From Chlorobiaceae bacterium (GTDB taxonomy: Bacteria > Bacteroidota > Chlorobiia > Chlorobiales > Chlorobiaceae): DNA of 64,000 bases. This document shows positions 6,423-31,932 of the stretch, one piece after another. The stretch's first letter is position 1, and every line of letters starts with the position of its first letter. The DNA lies in the NCBI GenBank assembly GCA_013334865.1, contig JAAXWS010000004.1, forward strand, positions 62,001 to 126,000. The letters are read 5' to 3'. The notes under the pieces are model-generated. The model ran no database searches. It was not told the DNA's origin and saw only the letters and a program-made list of their open reading frames with translations. The position numbers and the translations under genes are program-made.

Positions 6423-6480
6423 GTTCTGCTCTGTTTTTAAATGGTTGCGTGACGCCCTGATAAAGATTCAGAATATATAA

Positions 6481-6565
6481 TGGACAATGGACAATTGATA
6501 ATGGATAATGGCGGGAACAAGACTCCCTTTAATTATCAATTATCCATTATCAATTATTAATTATC
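6481..6565. repeat. Inverted ATTATC/GATAAT repeat island without a gene
   Basis: The left arm (6481-6510) is built of TGGACAATGGACAATTGATAA-like units. The right arm (6531-6565) is its approximate inverse (AATTATCAATTATCCATTATC-like). A 20-nt unique spacer separates them. The yggS stop codon lies inside the right arm. The unit CCATTATCAATTGTCCATT recurs at 30641-30660, next to nifB. Confidence 0.85.
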
Positions 6566-23106: not shown

Positions 23107-23919
23107 ATGTGCGATACCTGCGGTTGTTCGCCCGAAGGGGGTGCGGTGCTCCGCAAGCCCGGCGAGGACGGTTACCATGTCCATATCGGTGACGAGGCCG
23201 GCCATCATCATCATCACGAACATGATCATGGCCACGATCAAGGGCATCATCACGATCATGGCCCCGCCCGCAAGGTCGAGGTCGAGCAGGATGTCCTGCT
23301 GAAGAACAACCTGCTCGCCGAGCGCAACCGCGGCTGGTTCGAAGCGCGGAAAGTGCTGGCGCTCAACTTCCTCAGCTCTCCGGGGTCGGGCAAGACCACC
23401 ATCCTCGAGAAGACCGTTCCCATGCTCTCGGGCGGGTGGCCGGTGGCCGTCGTGGAGGGCGACCAGCAGACCACCAACGACGCCGACCGCATCCACGCCC
23501 TCGGCGTGCCGGTCATCCAGGTGAATACCGGCACCGGTTGCCACCTCGATGCCCTGATGGTGCAGCGCGCCGTCCGGGAACTCGACCTGAAGGAGCGCTC
23601 CCTGCTCTGCATCGAGAACGTCGGCAACCTGGTCTGCCCGGCCATGTTCGACCTCGGCGAGGCGGCAAGGGTGGTAGTGATCAGCACGACCGAAGGTGAG
23701 GACAAGCCCCTGAAGTACCCGACCATGTTCCATCACGCCGACCTCGTCCTGCTCAACAAGACCGACCTGTTGCCCTACCTCGATTTCGATGTGCAGAAGT
23801 GCCGCGAGTACGCCATGCAGGTCAACCACCACCTCGAATGGATAGAGGTGTCGGCAAAGACCGGGGAAGGGATGGAGCGATGGAAGGCATGGCTGACCTC
23901 GAAGCTGGAACGCCTCTGA
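23107..23919 (+). CDS. hypB: Hydrogenase maturation GTPase HypB
   Basis: SIMIBI-class GTPase that drives nickel insertion. Residues 2-7 are CDTCGC, the high-affinity N-terminal nickel site. Residues 33-51 are a His/Asp-rich nickel-storage stretch. The P-loop is SPGSGKT (91-97), followed by EGDQQTTNDA, IENVGNLVCPAMFDLGE with the metal cysteine, and NKTDLLPY. It has a GAGGA ribosome-binding site about nine bases upstream. It overlaps the 5' end of hypF by about 40 nt, so translation is likely coupled. Confidence 0.97.
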   Translation: MCDTCGCSPEGGAVLRKPGEDGYHVHIGDEAGHHHHHEHDHGHDQGHHHDHGPARKVEVEQDVLLKNNLLAERNRGWFEARKVLALNFLSSPGSGKTTILEKTVPMLSGGWPVAVVEGDQQTTNDADRIHALGVPVIQVNTGTGCHLDALMVQRAVRELDLKERSLLCIENVGNLVCPAMFDLGEAARVVVISTTEGEDKPLKYPTMFHHADLVLLNKTDLLPYLDFDVQKCREYAMQVNHHLEWIEVSAKTGEGMERWKAWLTSKLERL

Positions 23920-26228
23920 AAGGGCACAGCGTTGATGGGCCCGGCGGCATTGCCCGGCGGCAGTTCGTTGTCGCCGGCATCGTGCAGGGGGTCGGGTTCA
24001 GGCCTTTCGTCTGGCGGCTTGCCGGGCGATGCGGCCTCGGGGGCTTCATCCGGAACACCTCCTCGGGGGTGCTTATCGAGGTCGAAGGACCCGCATCGTC
24101 GATTGACCTGTTCACCGATGCCCTGGTGCATGAATCGCCACCGCTCGCACGGATCGCCTCGGTTGATGCCATCGAGATCCAGCCAGTCGGCGGGGACCCG
24201 GTGTTCGAGATCGCCGGCTCGACCTCCGGAGAAGCGATCGAAACCCTGATCTCCCCCGATATCGCCACCTGCGGCGAATGCCTTGGCGATCTCGATGACG
24301 CCGACGGCCGGCGTTTCCGATACCCGTTCACGAACTGCACGAACTGCGGCCCCCGCTACACCATCGTGGAGGCAATCCCTTACGACCGCCCGTTCACCAC
24401 CATGAAGGAGTTCGAGCTCTGTCACGAGTGTGGGTGTGAGTACCGCGATCCCGGCGACCGGAGGTTCCATGCCCAGCCGAACGCCTGCCCGGTTTGCGGC
24501 CCCCGCCTCGAACTCCTCGATGCTGCGGGAACCCGCGTCGACGAAACCGACCCATTGTCCGCGGCGGCAAGGCTGCTCCGTTCAGGCGCCATTCTTGCCG
24601 TCAAGGGCATCGGCGGCTTCCATCTGGCTGTGGACGCCAGGGACGACGAGGCGGTACGGCGCCTCCGGCAGAGGAAGGGGCGGGAGGAGAAGCCCTTTGC
24701 GGTGATGGTTCGGGACCTCGACATTGCACGGTCGCTTTGCTCGTTCGACGCCGACGAGGCCGCTGCGCTCGAGTCACCCGAAGCCCCCATCGTGCTGCTT
24801 CGCAAAAGCGGTGAGGAGGGGGTGGCCGGGTCGGTTGCTCCCGGCAATGACCGGCTCGGCGTGATGCTGCCCTATTCGCCGTTGCACCACCTGTTCCTGC
24901 GCGAAGGGCCGGATGTGCTCGTGATGACGAGCGCCAACCTGAGCGAGGAGCCGCTCGCCGGCGAGAACGGCGAGGCGCTCGAACGGCTCACCGGGATCGC
25001 CGAGTGGTTCCTCATGCACGACCGGCCGATAGCCCAGCGATGCGACGACTCGGTTGCCGTGCGCCTTGCCGGAAGTTTGCGCATGATCCGGCGAAGCCGT
25101 GGCTACGTGCCGGCGCCGATCCACCTGGCCGATTGCGGGCCGACGGTGCTCGCGACGGGTGGCGAACTGAAGAATGCGCTTTGCCTCGCGAAGGGAAGCG
25201 GGGCGATCATGAGCCAGCATATCGGCGACATGAAGAACTATGAGGCCTGGCGCCATTTCGACGCTGTGGCCGCGCACCTGCAGCGGATTTTCCGGGCAGA
25301 ACCGGAGCTCATCGTGCACGACCTGCATCCCTCCTACCTGACGACGCAGTGGGCGCAAGCGCAGTCGACGCCGCTGCTCGGCGTCCAGCACCACCACGCC
25401 CACCTCGCCTCCGTGCTGGCCGAAAACCTCCATTCCGGCCCCGCCATCGGCATCATGCTCGACGGCTCGGGATACGGCACCGACGGCACGGCCTGGGGCG
25501 GCGAGGTGCTGGTTGGCGATGCGGCCGCCGCGTTGCGCTTCGCATCGCTGGAACCGATGCCCCTTCCCGGCGGAGACGCCTCGGTGCGCCATGTCTGGCG
25601 CGCGGCCATCGGATTCCTGCACCGGTCCGGTGTGGATGCTGCAGGCCTTCCGTGCAGCCTGCAACCGGGAGCCGACGAGGTCCTCGAACTGCTCGACCGG
25701 GGAACCGGGTGTGCCGAGACTTCGAGCTGCGGTCGCCTCTTCGACGCGGTCGCCTCGATCTGCGGGCTCCGCCACGAGGCGAGCTATGAGGGGCAGGCGG
25801 CCGTGGAGCTGATGCAGGCGGCCGTGGGGCGGGTCGCCGAACACGGATTCGGTTTCGGTTTCGAACGGAGGCAGGGGCGCTGGCTGATGCTGACTTCTCT
25901 GCTGCTCGGAGAGGTTGCCGCCGAGGTGCGTTGCGGCATGGGGCCTGGACCCGTCAGCCGTCGTTTCCACCGGACGCTCTCCTGCATGTTTTCAGAAGTG
26001 GCGAGGATGGCCTATCTTGAGACGGGCCTGAAGGCCGTTGCCCTCGGCGGAGGGGTGTGCCAGAACGAACTGCTCCTCGAAACCCTCGTCCACGACCTGG
26101 AGACCAACGGCTTCAAGGTGCTGCTCCCGTCCCTCGTCCCGACCAACGACGGCGGCCTCTCCCTCGGCCAGGCCGTTATCGGCAGGGAGTATCTTAAAGG
26201 AAGGTACAGGGGGATAGTTGATAGTTGA
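23880..26228 (+). CDS. hypF: Carbamoyltransferase HypF
   Basis: Makes the thiocarboxamide on HypE from carbamoyl phosphate, the source of the cyanide ligands of [NiFe]-hydrogenase. The domains are in the normal order: acylphosphatase (VAGIVQGVGFRPFVWRLA), two zinc fingers (CGECLGDLD ... CTNCGP and CHECGCEY ... CPVCGP), YrdC-like (about 190-370) and Kae1-like (VQHHHAHLASVLAE, GIMLDGSGYGTDGTAWGGE, ALGGGVCQNELL). ATG at 23880 has GGAG five bases upstream; ATG at 23889 is the alternative. The last residues (RYRGIVDS) read into a heptad repeat, so the natural C terminus has been replaced by a repeat-encoded tail. Confidence 0.95.
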   Translation: MEGMADLEAGTPLKGHSVDGPGGIARRQFVVAGIVQGVGFRPFVWRLAGRCGLGGFIRNTSSGVLIEVEGPASSIDLFTDALVHESPPLARIASVDAIEIQPVGGDPVFEIAGSTSGEAIETLISPDIATCGECLGDLDDADGRRFRYPFTNCTNCGPRYTIVEAIPYDRPFTTMKEFELCHECGCEYRDPGDRRFHAQPNACPVCGPRLELLDAAGTRVDETDPLSAAARLLRSGAILAVKGIGGFHLAVDARDDEAVRRLRQRKGREEKPFAVMVRDLDIARSLCSFDADEAAALESPEAPIVLLRKSGEEGVAGSVAPGNDRLGVMLPYSPLHHLFLREGPDVLVMTSANLSEEPLAGENGEALERLTGIAEWFLMHDRPIAQRCDDSVAVRLAGSLRMIRRSRGYVPAPIHLADCGPTVLATGGELKNALCLAKGSGAIMSQHIGDMKNYEAWRHFDAVAAHLQRIFRAEPELIVHDLHPSYLTTQWAQAQSTPLLGVQHHHAHLASVLAENLHSGPAIGIMLDGSGYGTDGTAWGGEVLVGDAAAALRFASLEPMPLPGGDASVRHVWRAAIGFLHRSGVDAAGLPCSLQPGADEVLELLDRGTGCAETSSCGRLFDAVASICGLRHEASYEGQAAVELMQAAVGRVAEHGFGFGFERRQGRWLMLTSLLLGEVAAEVRCGMGPGPVSRRFHRTLSCMFSEVARMAYLETGLKAVALGGGVCQNELLLETLVHDLETNGFKVLLPSLVPTNDGGLSLGQAVIGREYLKGRYRGIVDS

Positions 26229-26253
26229 TAGTTGATAGTTGATAGTTGATAGT
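26214..26253. repeat. Heptad tandem repeat, left arm
   Basis: Five copies of ATAGTTG plus a partial one. They include the hypF stop codon and end at the ribosome-binding site of the four-helix-bundle gene. The inverse repeat lies at 26630-26660, so the gene between is framed by inverted repeats. Confidence 0.93.
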
Positions 26254-26266
26254 GAAGGGGGGGGAT

Positions 26267-26626
26267 ATGAGCGGGAAGAAGGTCAAGGAACTATCTTTTG
26301 GTTTCGCACTTAGAATTGTGAAGCTTTGCCGGTTTCTGGAGCAGGATAAAAAGGAGTTTGTGCTGAGCAGGCAACTTTTAAAAGCCGGCACTTCGATCGG
26401 TGCTCTGGTTCGTGAAGCCGAGCATGCCGAGAGCCGGGCTGATTTTATCCACAAAATGTCAATAGCCCTCAAAGAAGCCAATGAGACGGTTTATTGGATC
26501 GAACTGCTTCATCAGTCTGAACTGCTTGACCAGAAAGGCTTTGATTCCATCAATCCCGATATTCTGGAACTGTTGAAATTGCTTACCAGTATTGTTAAAA
26601 CATCTAAAAAAAAGATTGATGGCTGA
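26267..26626 (+). CDS. Four-helix-bundle protein (S23/23S rRNA intervening-sequence family)
   Basis: A 119-residue helical protein. The pattern is that of the S23/IVP family (TIGR02436 type): LSFGFALRIVKLCRFLE, SRQLLKAGTSIGALVREAEHAES, DFIHKMSIALKEANETVYWIELL. It starts at ATG 26267 after an unusually strong AAGGGGGGGG. It is not in an rRNA gene but inside the hyp operon, between hypF and hypC, and is framed by inverted heptad repeats. The codon use is more AT-rich than that of hypF and hypC, which suggests recent arrival. The biochemical role of the family is unknown; it has no part in hydrogenase maturation that I know of. Confidence 0.88.
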   Translation: MSGKKVKELSFGFALRIVKLCRFLEQDKKEFVLSRQLLKAGTSIGALVREAEHAESRADFIHKMSIALKEANETVYWIELLHQSELLDQKGFDSINPDILELLKLLTSIVKTSKKKIDG

Positions 26627-26629
26627 GGT

Positions 26630-26660
26630 AACTATCAACTATCAATTATCAACTATCAAC
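26630..26660. repeat. Heptad tandem repeat, right arm
   Basis: About 4.4 copies of AACTATC (one AATTATC variant), the reverse complement of the left-arm unit. It ends 4 nt before the hypC start codon, so it fills the place where a hypC ribosome-binding site would be. Confidence 0.93.
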
Positions 26661-26664
26661 GGTC

Positions 26665-26934
26665 ATGTGCCTCGCAATTCCTGGTAAACTCATCGAAATC
26701 CGTGAGGAGAACGGCCTGAAAATGGGCACGGTCGATATCAGCGGCTCCCTGACGAAGGCCTGCCTCGAGTATGTGCCCGACATCGCGGTCGGCCAGTATA
26801 CCATCGTCCATGCCGGGTTCGCCCTGAAGATCATCGACGAGGAGGAGGCCGCCGAGAGCCTGAAGCTCTGGGACGAACTGGTCCGCAGCGGAGCGTTCGA
26901 TACGGATCACGACCGGCCTTCCCCATCCCGGTAA
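26665..26934 (+). CDS. hypC: Hydrogenase maturation chaperone HypC
   Basis: Small OB-fold chaperone that carries the Fe(CN)2CO unit with HypD. It starts with the invariant MCLAIPGK, where Cys2 is the iron ligand, and contains [14 protein letters not shown]-like [19 protein letters not shown]. 89 residues. The sequence directly before the ATG is repeat DNA with no recognisable ribosome-binding site, so translation may be weak. hypD begins 11 nt after its stop. Confidence 0.96.
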
Positions 26935-30495: not shown

Positions 30496-30584
30496 GATGG
30501 TTGAAATTGGATTACTTGTTGGCTTGAAATATTTTACGGGACTTATAGGCCCTAAGCGGCTTATGTGTTTAAAAAAGAGATCTT

Positions 30585-30660
30585 CAACTATCAACTATCA
30601 ACTATCAACTATCAACTATCAACTATCAACTATCAACTATCCATTATCAATTGTCCATTA
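30585..30660. repeat. Heptad repeat island between nifB and the ferredoxin gene
   Basis: Eight exact tandem copies of CAACTAT (30585-30640), then CCATTATCAATTGTCCATTA (30641-30660), which overlaps the nifB stop codon. The same two sequence types occur at 26214-26660 and 6481-6565. No gene is inside this copy. Confidence 0.93.
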
Positions 30661-31932
30661 ATCACACCCATTCCCCGTCCCCCCGCACCCGGACTTGCAG
30701 GCGTGGATCTGGCTGCTCTTCATCAGGTGCTTCAGGTCCTGGCCGGTGAAGACGCCGTAGACCGCCTCCTCGATCACCCCTTCGAGCGACATGACATCGA
30801 TGCCCCGGGCGTTGAGCACGTTTTTCGGTGAATCTCCGGCGCTGTTGACCAGCAGGGCGCGGCAATCCGCAAGCCTCTCGGCCAGCGCTTCCCAGCGGTC
30901 CCTGCCGCCTCCGGGAGGGGGGGCCTGGCGTGAGTCGACCAGCGCGCAGCTCCGCGTCTGTTCGTCGAGCGCGTAGACCAGGAATCGGTCGGCTTCGCCG
31001 AGGTGCTGGTTGACGAGCACTCCCTCGATGCTGGCCACGGCGATGAACGGACGGTGCTCCTCGGGGTTTTTCGGCAGGCGTGAGGCTTCGGCAAGTTTCT
31101 GCATGATCTCCTCGTTGTTGATCTCGCCGATGATGCCGACCGCGTCGGCGCGGCAGCGGGCGCAGTGCTTCATCTGCGGCAGCAGCTTGCCGGCTTCTTC
31201 CTGGATCTCCTTCACCATTTCCGGATGCGGCTCGGGAATGTTCTCGAACACGGTCTCGGTGGTGTTGTAGTAGGGCAGGCAGTTCAGGATGTCGGCACCC
31301 ATGGAGGCCACCTGGCGGGCGACTTCGACCACATGGGTGTCGTTGATGCCCGGGATGATGATCGAGTTGACCTTGGCGGTCACGCCGAGCCTCTTGAGCT
31401 TCTGCAACGCCGCGAGCTGGTTTTCGAGCAGCAGCCGGGCACCCTCGATGTCGCGGTACATGCGCTTCTGGTAGCGCACCCAGGCATAGATCTCGGCGCC
31501 GATCTGCGGGTCGATGGCGTTGATCGTCAGCGTGACATGGCTCACCTTGAGTTCGGCAAGCTCGTCGATGTAGGGCAGCACGTCGAGGCCGTTGGTGGCG
31601 ACGCAGAGCAGCATTTCAGGATAGTGCTCCCTGACGAGGCGCAGCGTCTCCATGGTCTCCTCCGGGTTGGCGAAGGGGTCGCCGGGGCCGGCGATACCGA
31701 CGACCGAGATGTTCGGGGAGAGCTTGAGCGCCCCTTCGAGATAGTGCAGCGCCTGCTTCGGCGAGAGCACCTTGCTGGTGACGCCGGGGCGGTTCTCGTT
31801 CATGCAGTCGAACTTCCGGTTGCAGTAGTTGCACTGGATGTTGCATTTCGGCGCGACCGGCAGGTGGATGCGTCCGAACTTGTGCCTCGACGAGTCGTTG
31901 AAACAGGGATGGTTCTGGATGTTGAGTGTCAT
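30658..31932 (-). CDS. nifB: Nitrogenase FeMo-cofactor assembly protein NifB
   Basis: Radical-SAM enzyme that makes the 8Fe-9S-C precursor (NifB-co). The N-terminal SAM cluster motif is CNIQCNYC, followed by RKFDCMNENRPGV typical of NifB; GPGDPFANPEET and the later Cys pair (KHCARCRADAVG) are conserved. The last about 120 residues form a NifX/NafY-like cofactor-binding domain, so no separate nifX is needed. ATG at 31932, with GGGAGAAC upstream. 424 residues. The stop codon is in repeat DNA. Confidence 0.97.
   Translation of the reverse strand: MTLNIQNHPCFNDSSRHKFGRIHLPVAPKCNIQCNYCNRKFDCMNENRPGVTSKVLSPKQALHYLEGALKLSPNISVVGIAGPGDPFANPEETMETLRLVREHYPEMLLCVATNGLDVLPYIDELAELKVSHVTLTINAIDPQIGAEIYAWVRYQKRMYRDIEGARLLLENQLAALQKLKRLGVTAKVNSIIIPGINDTHVVEVARQVASMGADILNCLPYYNTTETVFENIPEPHPEMVKEIQEEAGKLLPQMKHCARCRADAVGIIGEINNEEIMQKLAEASRLPKNPEEHRPFIAVASIEGVLVNQHLGEADRFLVYALDEQTRSCALVDSRQAPPPGGGRDRWEALAERLADCRALLVNSAGDSPKNVLNARGIDVMSLEGVIEEAVYGVFTGQDLKHLMKSSQIHACKSGCGGTGNGCD

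Follow-up and report, generated by a model that had tools for sequence, protein, structure and literature searches.

S23-family genes between inverted heptanucleotide arrays: a unit at the hypF–hypC junction of a Chlorobiaceae genome and its counterparts across bacterial phyla

Among described systems, the intervening sequences (IVSs) of 23S rRNA genes are the closest to the unit analysed here. In Coxiella, the IVS carries an S23 ORF and a 28-bp terminal stem that is cut by RNase III, tandem heptamers (GACAGAT) lie beside the ORF in a copy number that varies between strains, and the authors term the IVS a selfish element (PMC4990558). TAACTGA heptamers from Beggiatoaceae, Cyanobacteria and Bacteroidetes were reported in 2015 with no mechanism given (PMC4679880), and homology between S23 and Avd of diversity-generating retroelements (DGRs) has been noted previously (PMC10053308). 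The association reported here joins two puzzles, namely the role of S23 and four-helix-bundle proteins, whose structures date from 2006–2007, and the dominance of 7-nt units among long bacterial repeats. RAYT transposases with their REP/REPIN sequences are alike in outline, with a gene between short inverted repeats and gene-less inverted pairs elsewhere.

The window, a stretch of 64,000 nucleotides, comes from a Chlorobiaceae genome of the green sulfur lineage (2.42 Mb, 44 contigs). In this window, hypF (23799..26228, + strand; TIGR00143, E=3e-228; start codon uncertain) and hypC (26665..26934, +; TIGR00074, E=7e-20) are separated by an S23 / four helix bundle protein gene of 119 aa (26267..26626, +; TIGR02436, PF05635). 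On its left stands a tandem array of 5.9 GATAGTT units (26213..26253, +; 100% match), inside which hypF ends with its stop codon, and on its right an array of 4.4 AACTATC units (26630..26660, −), which is the inverse of the left arm and contains one variant unit. Over their best long stretch, of 31 nt, the arms are 97% complementary, and on the gene strand only the S23 ORF, and no transposase, was found between them. A sequence-only reading of this DNA had proposed an S23 gene framed by inverted heptads between hypF and hypC, and these arrays bear it out.

Like the 23S IVSs of Coxiella, Leptospira and Brucella, the unit has an S23-family ORF within terminal inverted repeats. Unlike them, it lies between protein genes and not within a 23S rRNA gene, many matched units make up its stem, and constraint at the RNA level was not seen. 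Its tandem 7-nt units in intergenic DNA also place it among heptanucleotide repeats (STRR or long simple sequence repeats). With TAACTGA and other long heptanucleotide repeats it shares intergenic 7-nt arrays near gene starts and stops, stop codons in three frames of one direction and a patchy distribution; that work, however, concerns direct repeats of one unit, reports hardly any inverted pairs and mentions neither a linked gene nor S23 (PMC4679880), whereas here the unit varies with the S23-type protein. By inspection, the TAACTGA heptamers fit the unit pattern of S23 arms.

The protein encoded in the window is a member of the S23 / 23S_rRNA_IVP family by profile (TIGR02436: E=4e-28, 97.8 bits, cut-off 24; PF05635: E=2e-24, 86.3 bits, cut-off 33.8) and by its four-helix-bundle fold, as the AlphaFold model (pLDDT 94.6) has four helices and a TM-score of 0.92 to 2rld. 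The relatives 2rld and 2gsc have five chains each in their crystals, and XCC0516 is cited as a homopentamer in PMC4990558. The kinship with 23S IVSs named in the sequence-only reading is real, and the Coxiella S23 ORF, too, has heptamers beside it (PMC4990558).

For a broader comparison, 80 S23 loci were gathered from genome contigs, and the 77 with both flanks were analysed. About a dozen phyla were sampled, including Chlorobi, Bacteroidota, Cyanobacteria, Nitrospira, Acidobacteria, Chloroflexi, Planctomycetes, several proteobacterial groups and others. Among tested periods of 4–12, the best repeat period is 7 upstream in 68 of the 77 loci and downstream in 70. At least one flank carries a period-7 array (lag-7 score at least 8) in 94% of them, compared with 4% of Markov-shuffled flanks, 5–8% of regions one kb away and 14% of other intergenic gaps of the same loci, so a chance origin of the arrays beside S23 genes is excluded. 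An inverted-repeat score of at least 12 is reached in 77% of the loci and in 1–3% of controls. The association is weaker but clear in a wider set including distant Bacteroidota subfamilies, where 125 of 165 loci have an array on one side or both. Strong arrays stand on both sides in 47 of these 165, and there the arms of a locus match as inverses with a median score of 17, against 5 for other loci's arms and 5 for the own partner in direct orientation. Flanking of S23/IVP genes by heptads, a check proposed in the sequence-only reading, thus recurs across phyla. A strong ribosome-binding site, also remarked on at this locus, is not a general trait of S23 genes, being present in 35 of 165 by a loose pattern.

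The units tend to stand at gene boundaries. The left arm starts within −30 to +25 nt of the upstream stop codon in 41 of 48 cases, a measure with some circularity, since stop codons occur in most arms and an ORF that runs into an arm ends there. In 23 of 39 cases the right arm ends near a downstream start, which favours a position at gene borders. The S23 unit of L072 (Okeania; about 2501–2842) appears, judging by its translated flanks, to lie between what we take to be rpoB and rpoC1, inside an essential operon. Inbound stop codons exist in about 90% of arms and outbound stops in about half. The idea that three-frame stops alone explain the unit was rejected, since outbound stops are also common and a 9-nt period stays in one frame. 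A phage or plasmid vehicle was rejected as well: S23 genes turned up in 2 phage records and in 25 from plasmids, the plasmids mostly cyanobacterial, which indicates no strong vehicle.

The wording of the unit follows the protein. For 147 loci from 124 genomes, protein distance and arm-unit distance are correlated (Mantel r 0.604; best of 500 permutations 0.106). Units of different S23 subfamilies within one genome lie 0.52 apart (17 pairs), about as far as those of unrelated loci (0.51); within one subfamily, units from different genomes are alike (0.36). The arm unit therefore tracks the S23 protein, not the host genome. Unit length behaves in the same way: one Bacteroidota S23 clade has 8-nt arms (L260, L261, L264, L277, L279, L281, L284 and others), and the related TIGR04258 4helix_suffix proteins have mostly 9-nt arms, e.g. 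GTGGACNNN or ATAGGTCTT. On a protein tree of few columns and many open forks, the period changes 5 times, compared with a shuffled mean of 17.5 and minimum of 15. Arms of 8 nt are also seen at L305 and L352, outside the main octad clade (L260–L284) and in at least one further S23 lineage, suggesting that the period changed repeatedly. The arms belong to the S23 gene, as both the sequence and the length of the unit track the protein clade across phyla.

The best explanation, to which we give about an even chance, is a widespread and largely selfish IVS-like unit of gene plus arms, in which S23 recognises its own arm repeat as DNA. Such a unit would consist of one S23-type gene between inverted tandem arrays, right behind a host-gene stop codon and in the same orientation. 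The protein, a homopentamer in solved relatives, would read the arm units in duplex or cruciform DNA, with a clade-specific register of 7, 8 or 9 nt. This contact would maintain the unit, allow its horizontal spread and let matching arms be planted in trans at further gene ends, with the arms as the part that is kept and spreads, and stop codons in the arms would keep the host gene readable, so that insertion is tolerated. The 23S rRNA IVS would be built alike, with an rRNA gene as its site.

If the protein does set the length and sequence of the arm unit, S23 would form a new family of sequence readers, for which nature supplies a very large set of protein–target pairs, and 23S rRNA IVSs would be the rRNA-dwelling members of a unit that lives mostly between protein genes. 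Gene-plus-arms units would also offer an explanation for the commonness of 7-nt repeats in bacteria. A bolder version can be put forward only tentatively: S23-type proteins may form a class of minimal element in which the protein reads a 7-, 8- or 9-nt word and has it copied to new gene ends as inverted tandem arms, and these elements, and not slippage by itself, may explain much of the bacterial 7-nt excess. In the literature searched, with most subscription journals outside the search, no paper was found that joins S23 genes to protein-matched inverted arms. The link between S23 and matched arms is provisionally regarded as new; the heptamers in the Coxiella 23S IVS were already published.

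One alternative sees operator or processing sites in the arms and a regulator serving the host in S23, for example by autoregulation or by insulation of its neighbours. Purifying selection on the S23 reading frame is strong (median dN/dS 0.085), and among 35 sequences from many phyla the invariant residues, many of them charged, include R49, E50, D59, H62, K63, K69, E70, E73, Y76 and W77. Such selection, constrained positions within the unit, and arms at gene ends that have no S23 would suit a regulator; the selection, the invariant residues and the constrained positions also count for the unit of gene plus arms. However, S23 is patchy, being absent in 45 of 198 Bacteroidota genomes, the loci have unrelated neighbours and differing units with no common regulon seen, and the hyp site has turned over between sister species. 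We consider a host-serving regulator unlikely.

This turnover can be followed at the hypF–hypC junction of relatives. S23 with heptads is found there in 11 species and 9-mer arms without the gene in 5, while neither gene nor arms exist in G002, G004, G013 and the sister genus, which provide the empty sites in close relatives that the sequence-only reading had called for. Thus relatives did not uniformly carry the gene without repeats, nor was the S23–heptad link absent genome-wide, the two outcomes that would have told against that reading. On the hypC–hypD tree, the S23 state is scattered, with 9 changes, at least 5 of which are forced by well-supported branches. For example, sister species differ in the pairs G007 (9-mer) and G018 (S23), and G002 (empty) and G017 (S23). 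Synonymous divergence is usually higher for S23 than for hypD, and S23 is the less diverged in only 3 of 55 pairs, so a recent spread of S23 among Chlorobium species was rejected. The two measures agree in some pairs (G009–G010, 0.18 and 0.18) and are strongly discordant in others (G009–G012, 0.67 vs 0.25). Together these patterns suggest more than one arrival or exchange of S23 at the hyp site, with the direction of gain and loss unpolarised. Nearly all checkable green-sulfur copies of the window's S23 subfamily adjoin hypC; as the subfamily is found only at hypF–hypC in green sulfur bacteria, no active transposition is seen within the genus.

The hypF tail RYRGIVDS runs into the left array, as had been noticed, but the change to the C terminus is minor, because the tails at empty sites (GVT or GVESGSI) diverge at the last residues only. 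The claim that repeat DNA displaced the hypC ribosome-binding site did not hold: no Shine-Dalgarno-like site precedes hypC in the empty sites of G002, G004 and G013 or with the insertion, hence none was displaced.

A second alternative, which appears rather improbable, acts on RNA: in the hyp mRNA the two arms would pair, leaving the S23 ORF in the loop of a long hairpin that RNase III removes, as it does a 23S IVS. The anatomy is shared with the Coxiella IVS, whose stem is cut in this way (PMC4990558), and in 63 of 68 loci the upstream gene points the same way as S23 (background 78%, p=9e-4). In 128 stems, however, the gene strand has 132 G-U-type and 177 A-C-type mismatches, and none of 40 loci examined lies within an rRNA gene. 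Since there is no G-U excess, the matching of the arms is best explained at the DNA level, and a hairpin under gene-strand selection was rejected, the mismatch asymmetry leaning slightly the opposite way.

Ordinary slippage repeats that S23 genes tolerate or carry, with no recognition by the protein, are a further alternative. Co-inheritance of gene and arms without protein–DNA recognition could account for the arms and by itself yield part of the Mantel correlation, and copy number does vary between Coxiella strains (PMC4990558). But in the window's subfamily, with the unit A-A/G-T-T/G-G/A-A/T-N, mismatches between adjacent units amount to 7–8% at positions 1 and 3 and to 27–35% at positions 4, 5 and 7 (p=2e-58), and this inequality indicates that the arrays are not products of free-running slippage. 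Slippage also leaves aside that unit length shifts with the protein clade, that the arms recur as inverted, matched pairs, and that arrays accompany S23 elsewhere in the genome. In the 198 Bacteroidota genomes, the median number of hits of a heptad pattern is 12 in the 147 with S23 and 0 in the 45 without (p=1e-10), counts in which genome relatedness is incompletely controlled and a single pattern misses some unit types. Sister genomes differ in the same direction: 302 hits in G125 with S23 vs 0 in G128 without it, and 378 and 286 in G134 and G153 vs 0 in both G070 and G160. Four exceptions (G034, G067, G127 and G182) have many heptads without an S23 match, which may reflect loss, missing contigs or another agent. 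Slippage without recognition is accordingly given little credence.

A classical transposon or MITE, with the arms as terminal inverted repeats and a transposase acting in trans, is very unlikely. Inverted arms, gene-less pairs and the coexistence of filled and empty sites are what it would produce. A single S23 gene of the host genome passes the Pfam cut-off, yet its heptad arrays are many, several in inverted pairs; in the window, such a gene-less pair of the same repeat system stands between yggS and punA (6479..6565; arrays 6479–6511 and 6531–6565). At argG–argH and yggS–punA, arm pairs are found at matching sites in sister species, with units that differ and are sometimes 9-mers, and they stand at both borders of the intergenic region. 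The argG–argH pair surrounds the native argG terminator, which is common to species without the right arm. As gene-less pairs enclose native intergenic DNA and not element sequence, they are not deleted transposon copies; these two loci suggest that placement of arms can occur in trans. Moreover, the arms are tandem arrays of variable length and not fixed ends, the element has no transposase, and neither a target duplication nor a clean boundary was identified by comparing filled with empty hyp sites, where the intergenic DNA is too diverged. The S23 unit also differs from RAYT/REPIN in lacking a Y1 transposase, in having arms of 7–9 nt tandem units and in the native interiors of the gene-less pairs examined. 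Of the earlier description as a transposon-like unit, the recurrence of gene and inverted arms across phyla, with units that follow the protein family, stands; the spreading of arm-bounded copies is not supported. A single 77-nt heptad array (30584..30660, −) lies immediately 3' of the stop of the gene 30658–31932 (−) and supplies its stop codon, and no inverted partner was seen nearby.

That a reverse transcriptase with an Avd-fold S23 writes the arm repeats from an RNA template is extremely improbable: S23 shares a four-helix fold and a pentameric family with Avd, the model matching Avd 4dwl more weakly (TM-score 0.65–0.69) and the DGR ribonucleoprotein 8ub7 at up to 0.77, but no template or variable repeat is known, and no RVT_1 (PF00078) reverse transcriptase was detected in the host genome (G000) or in the single-contig genomes G003, G012 and G017, all with S23 and arms, so that a partnership of this kind is excluded there and the proposal is refuted for reverse transcriptases detectable by PF00078.

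For the selfish unit of gene plus arms, the 9-nt system gives a parallel. In 81 family genomes, a 9-mer pattern accompanies 4helix_suffix genes (p=7e-6, with relatedness incompletely controlled), and G005, G007 and G161 are exceptions. The host genome has two TIGR04258 4helix_suffix genes (L002:1288–1845, −, and G000:C19:472–618) and 33 hits of the 9-mer array pattern (control 0), and the former gene is flanked by inverted GGACNNNAR 9-mer arrays. The hypF–hypC junction of G016 (L157) is composite, with 7-mers of the AATTGTG type on the left and 9-mers on the right, which means that the 7-mer and 9-mer systems can share one site.

Two minor observations concern 9-mers. In L174, an internal Ser/Thr stretch of the 4helix_suffix ORF (TTSTTSTKSTTSTSS) resembles in-frame 9-mer arrays, as if arms had grown within the gene itself. 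At L195 (G000:C41:52000–53500), a 7-mer array 3' of a stop codon is followed by inverse 9-mer units, which is another mixed boundary.
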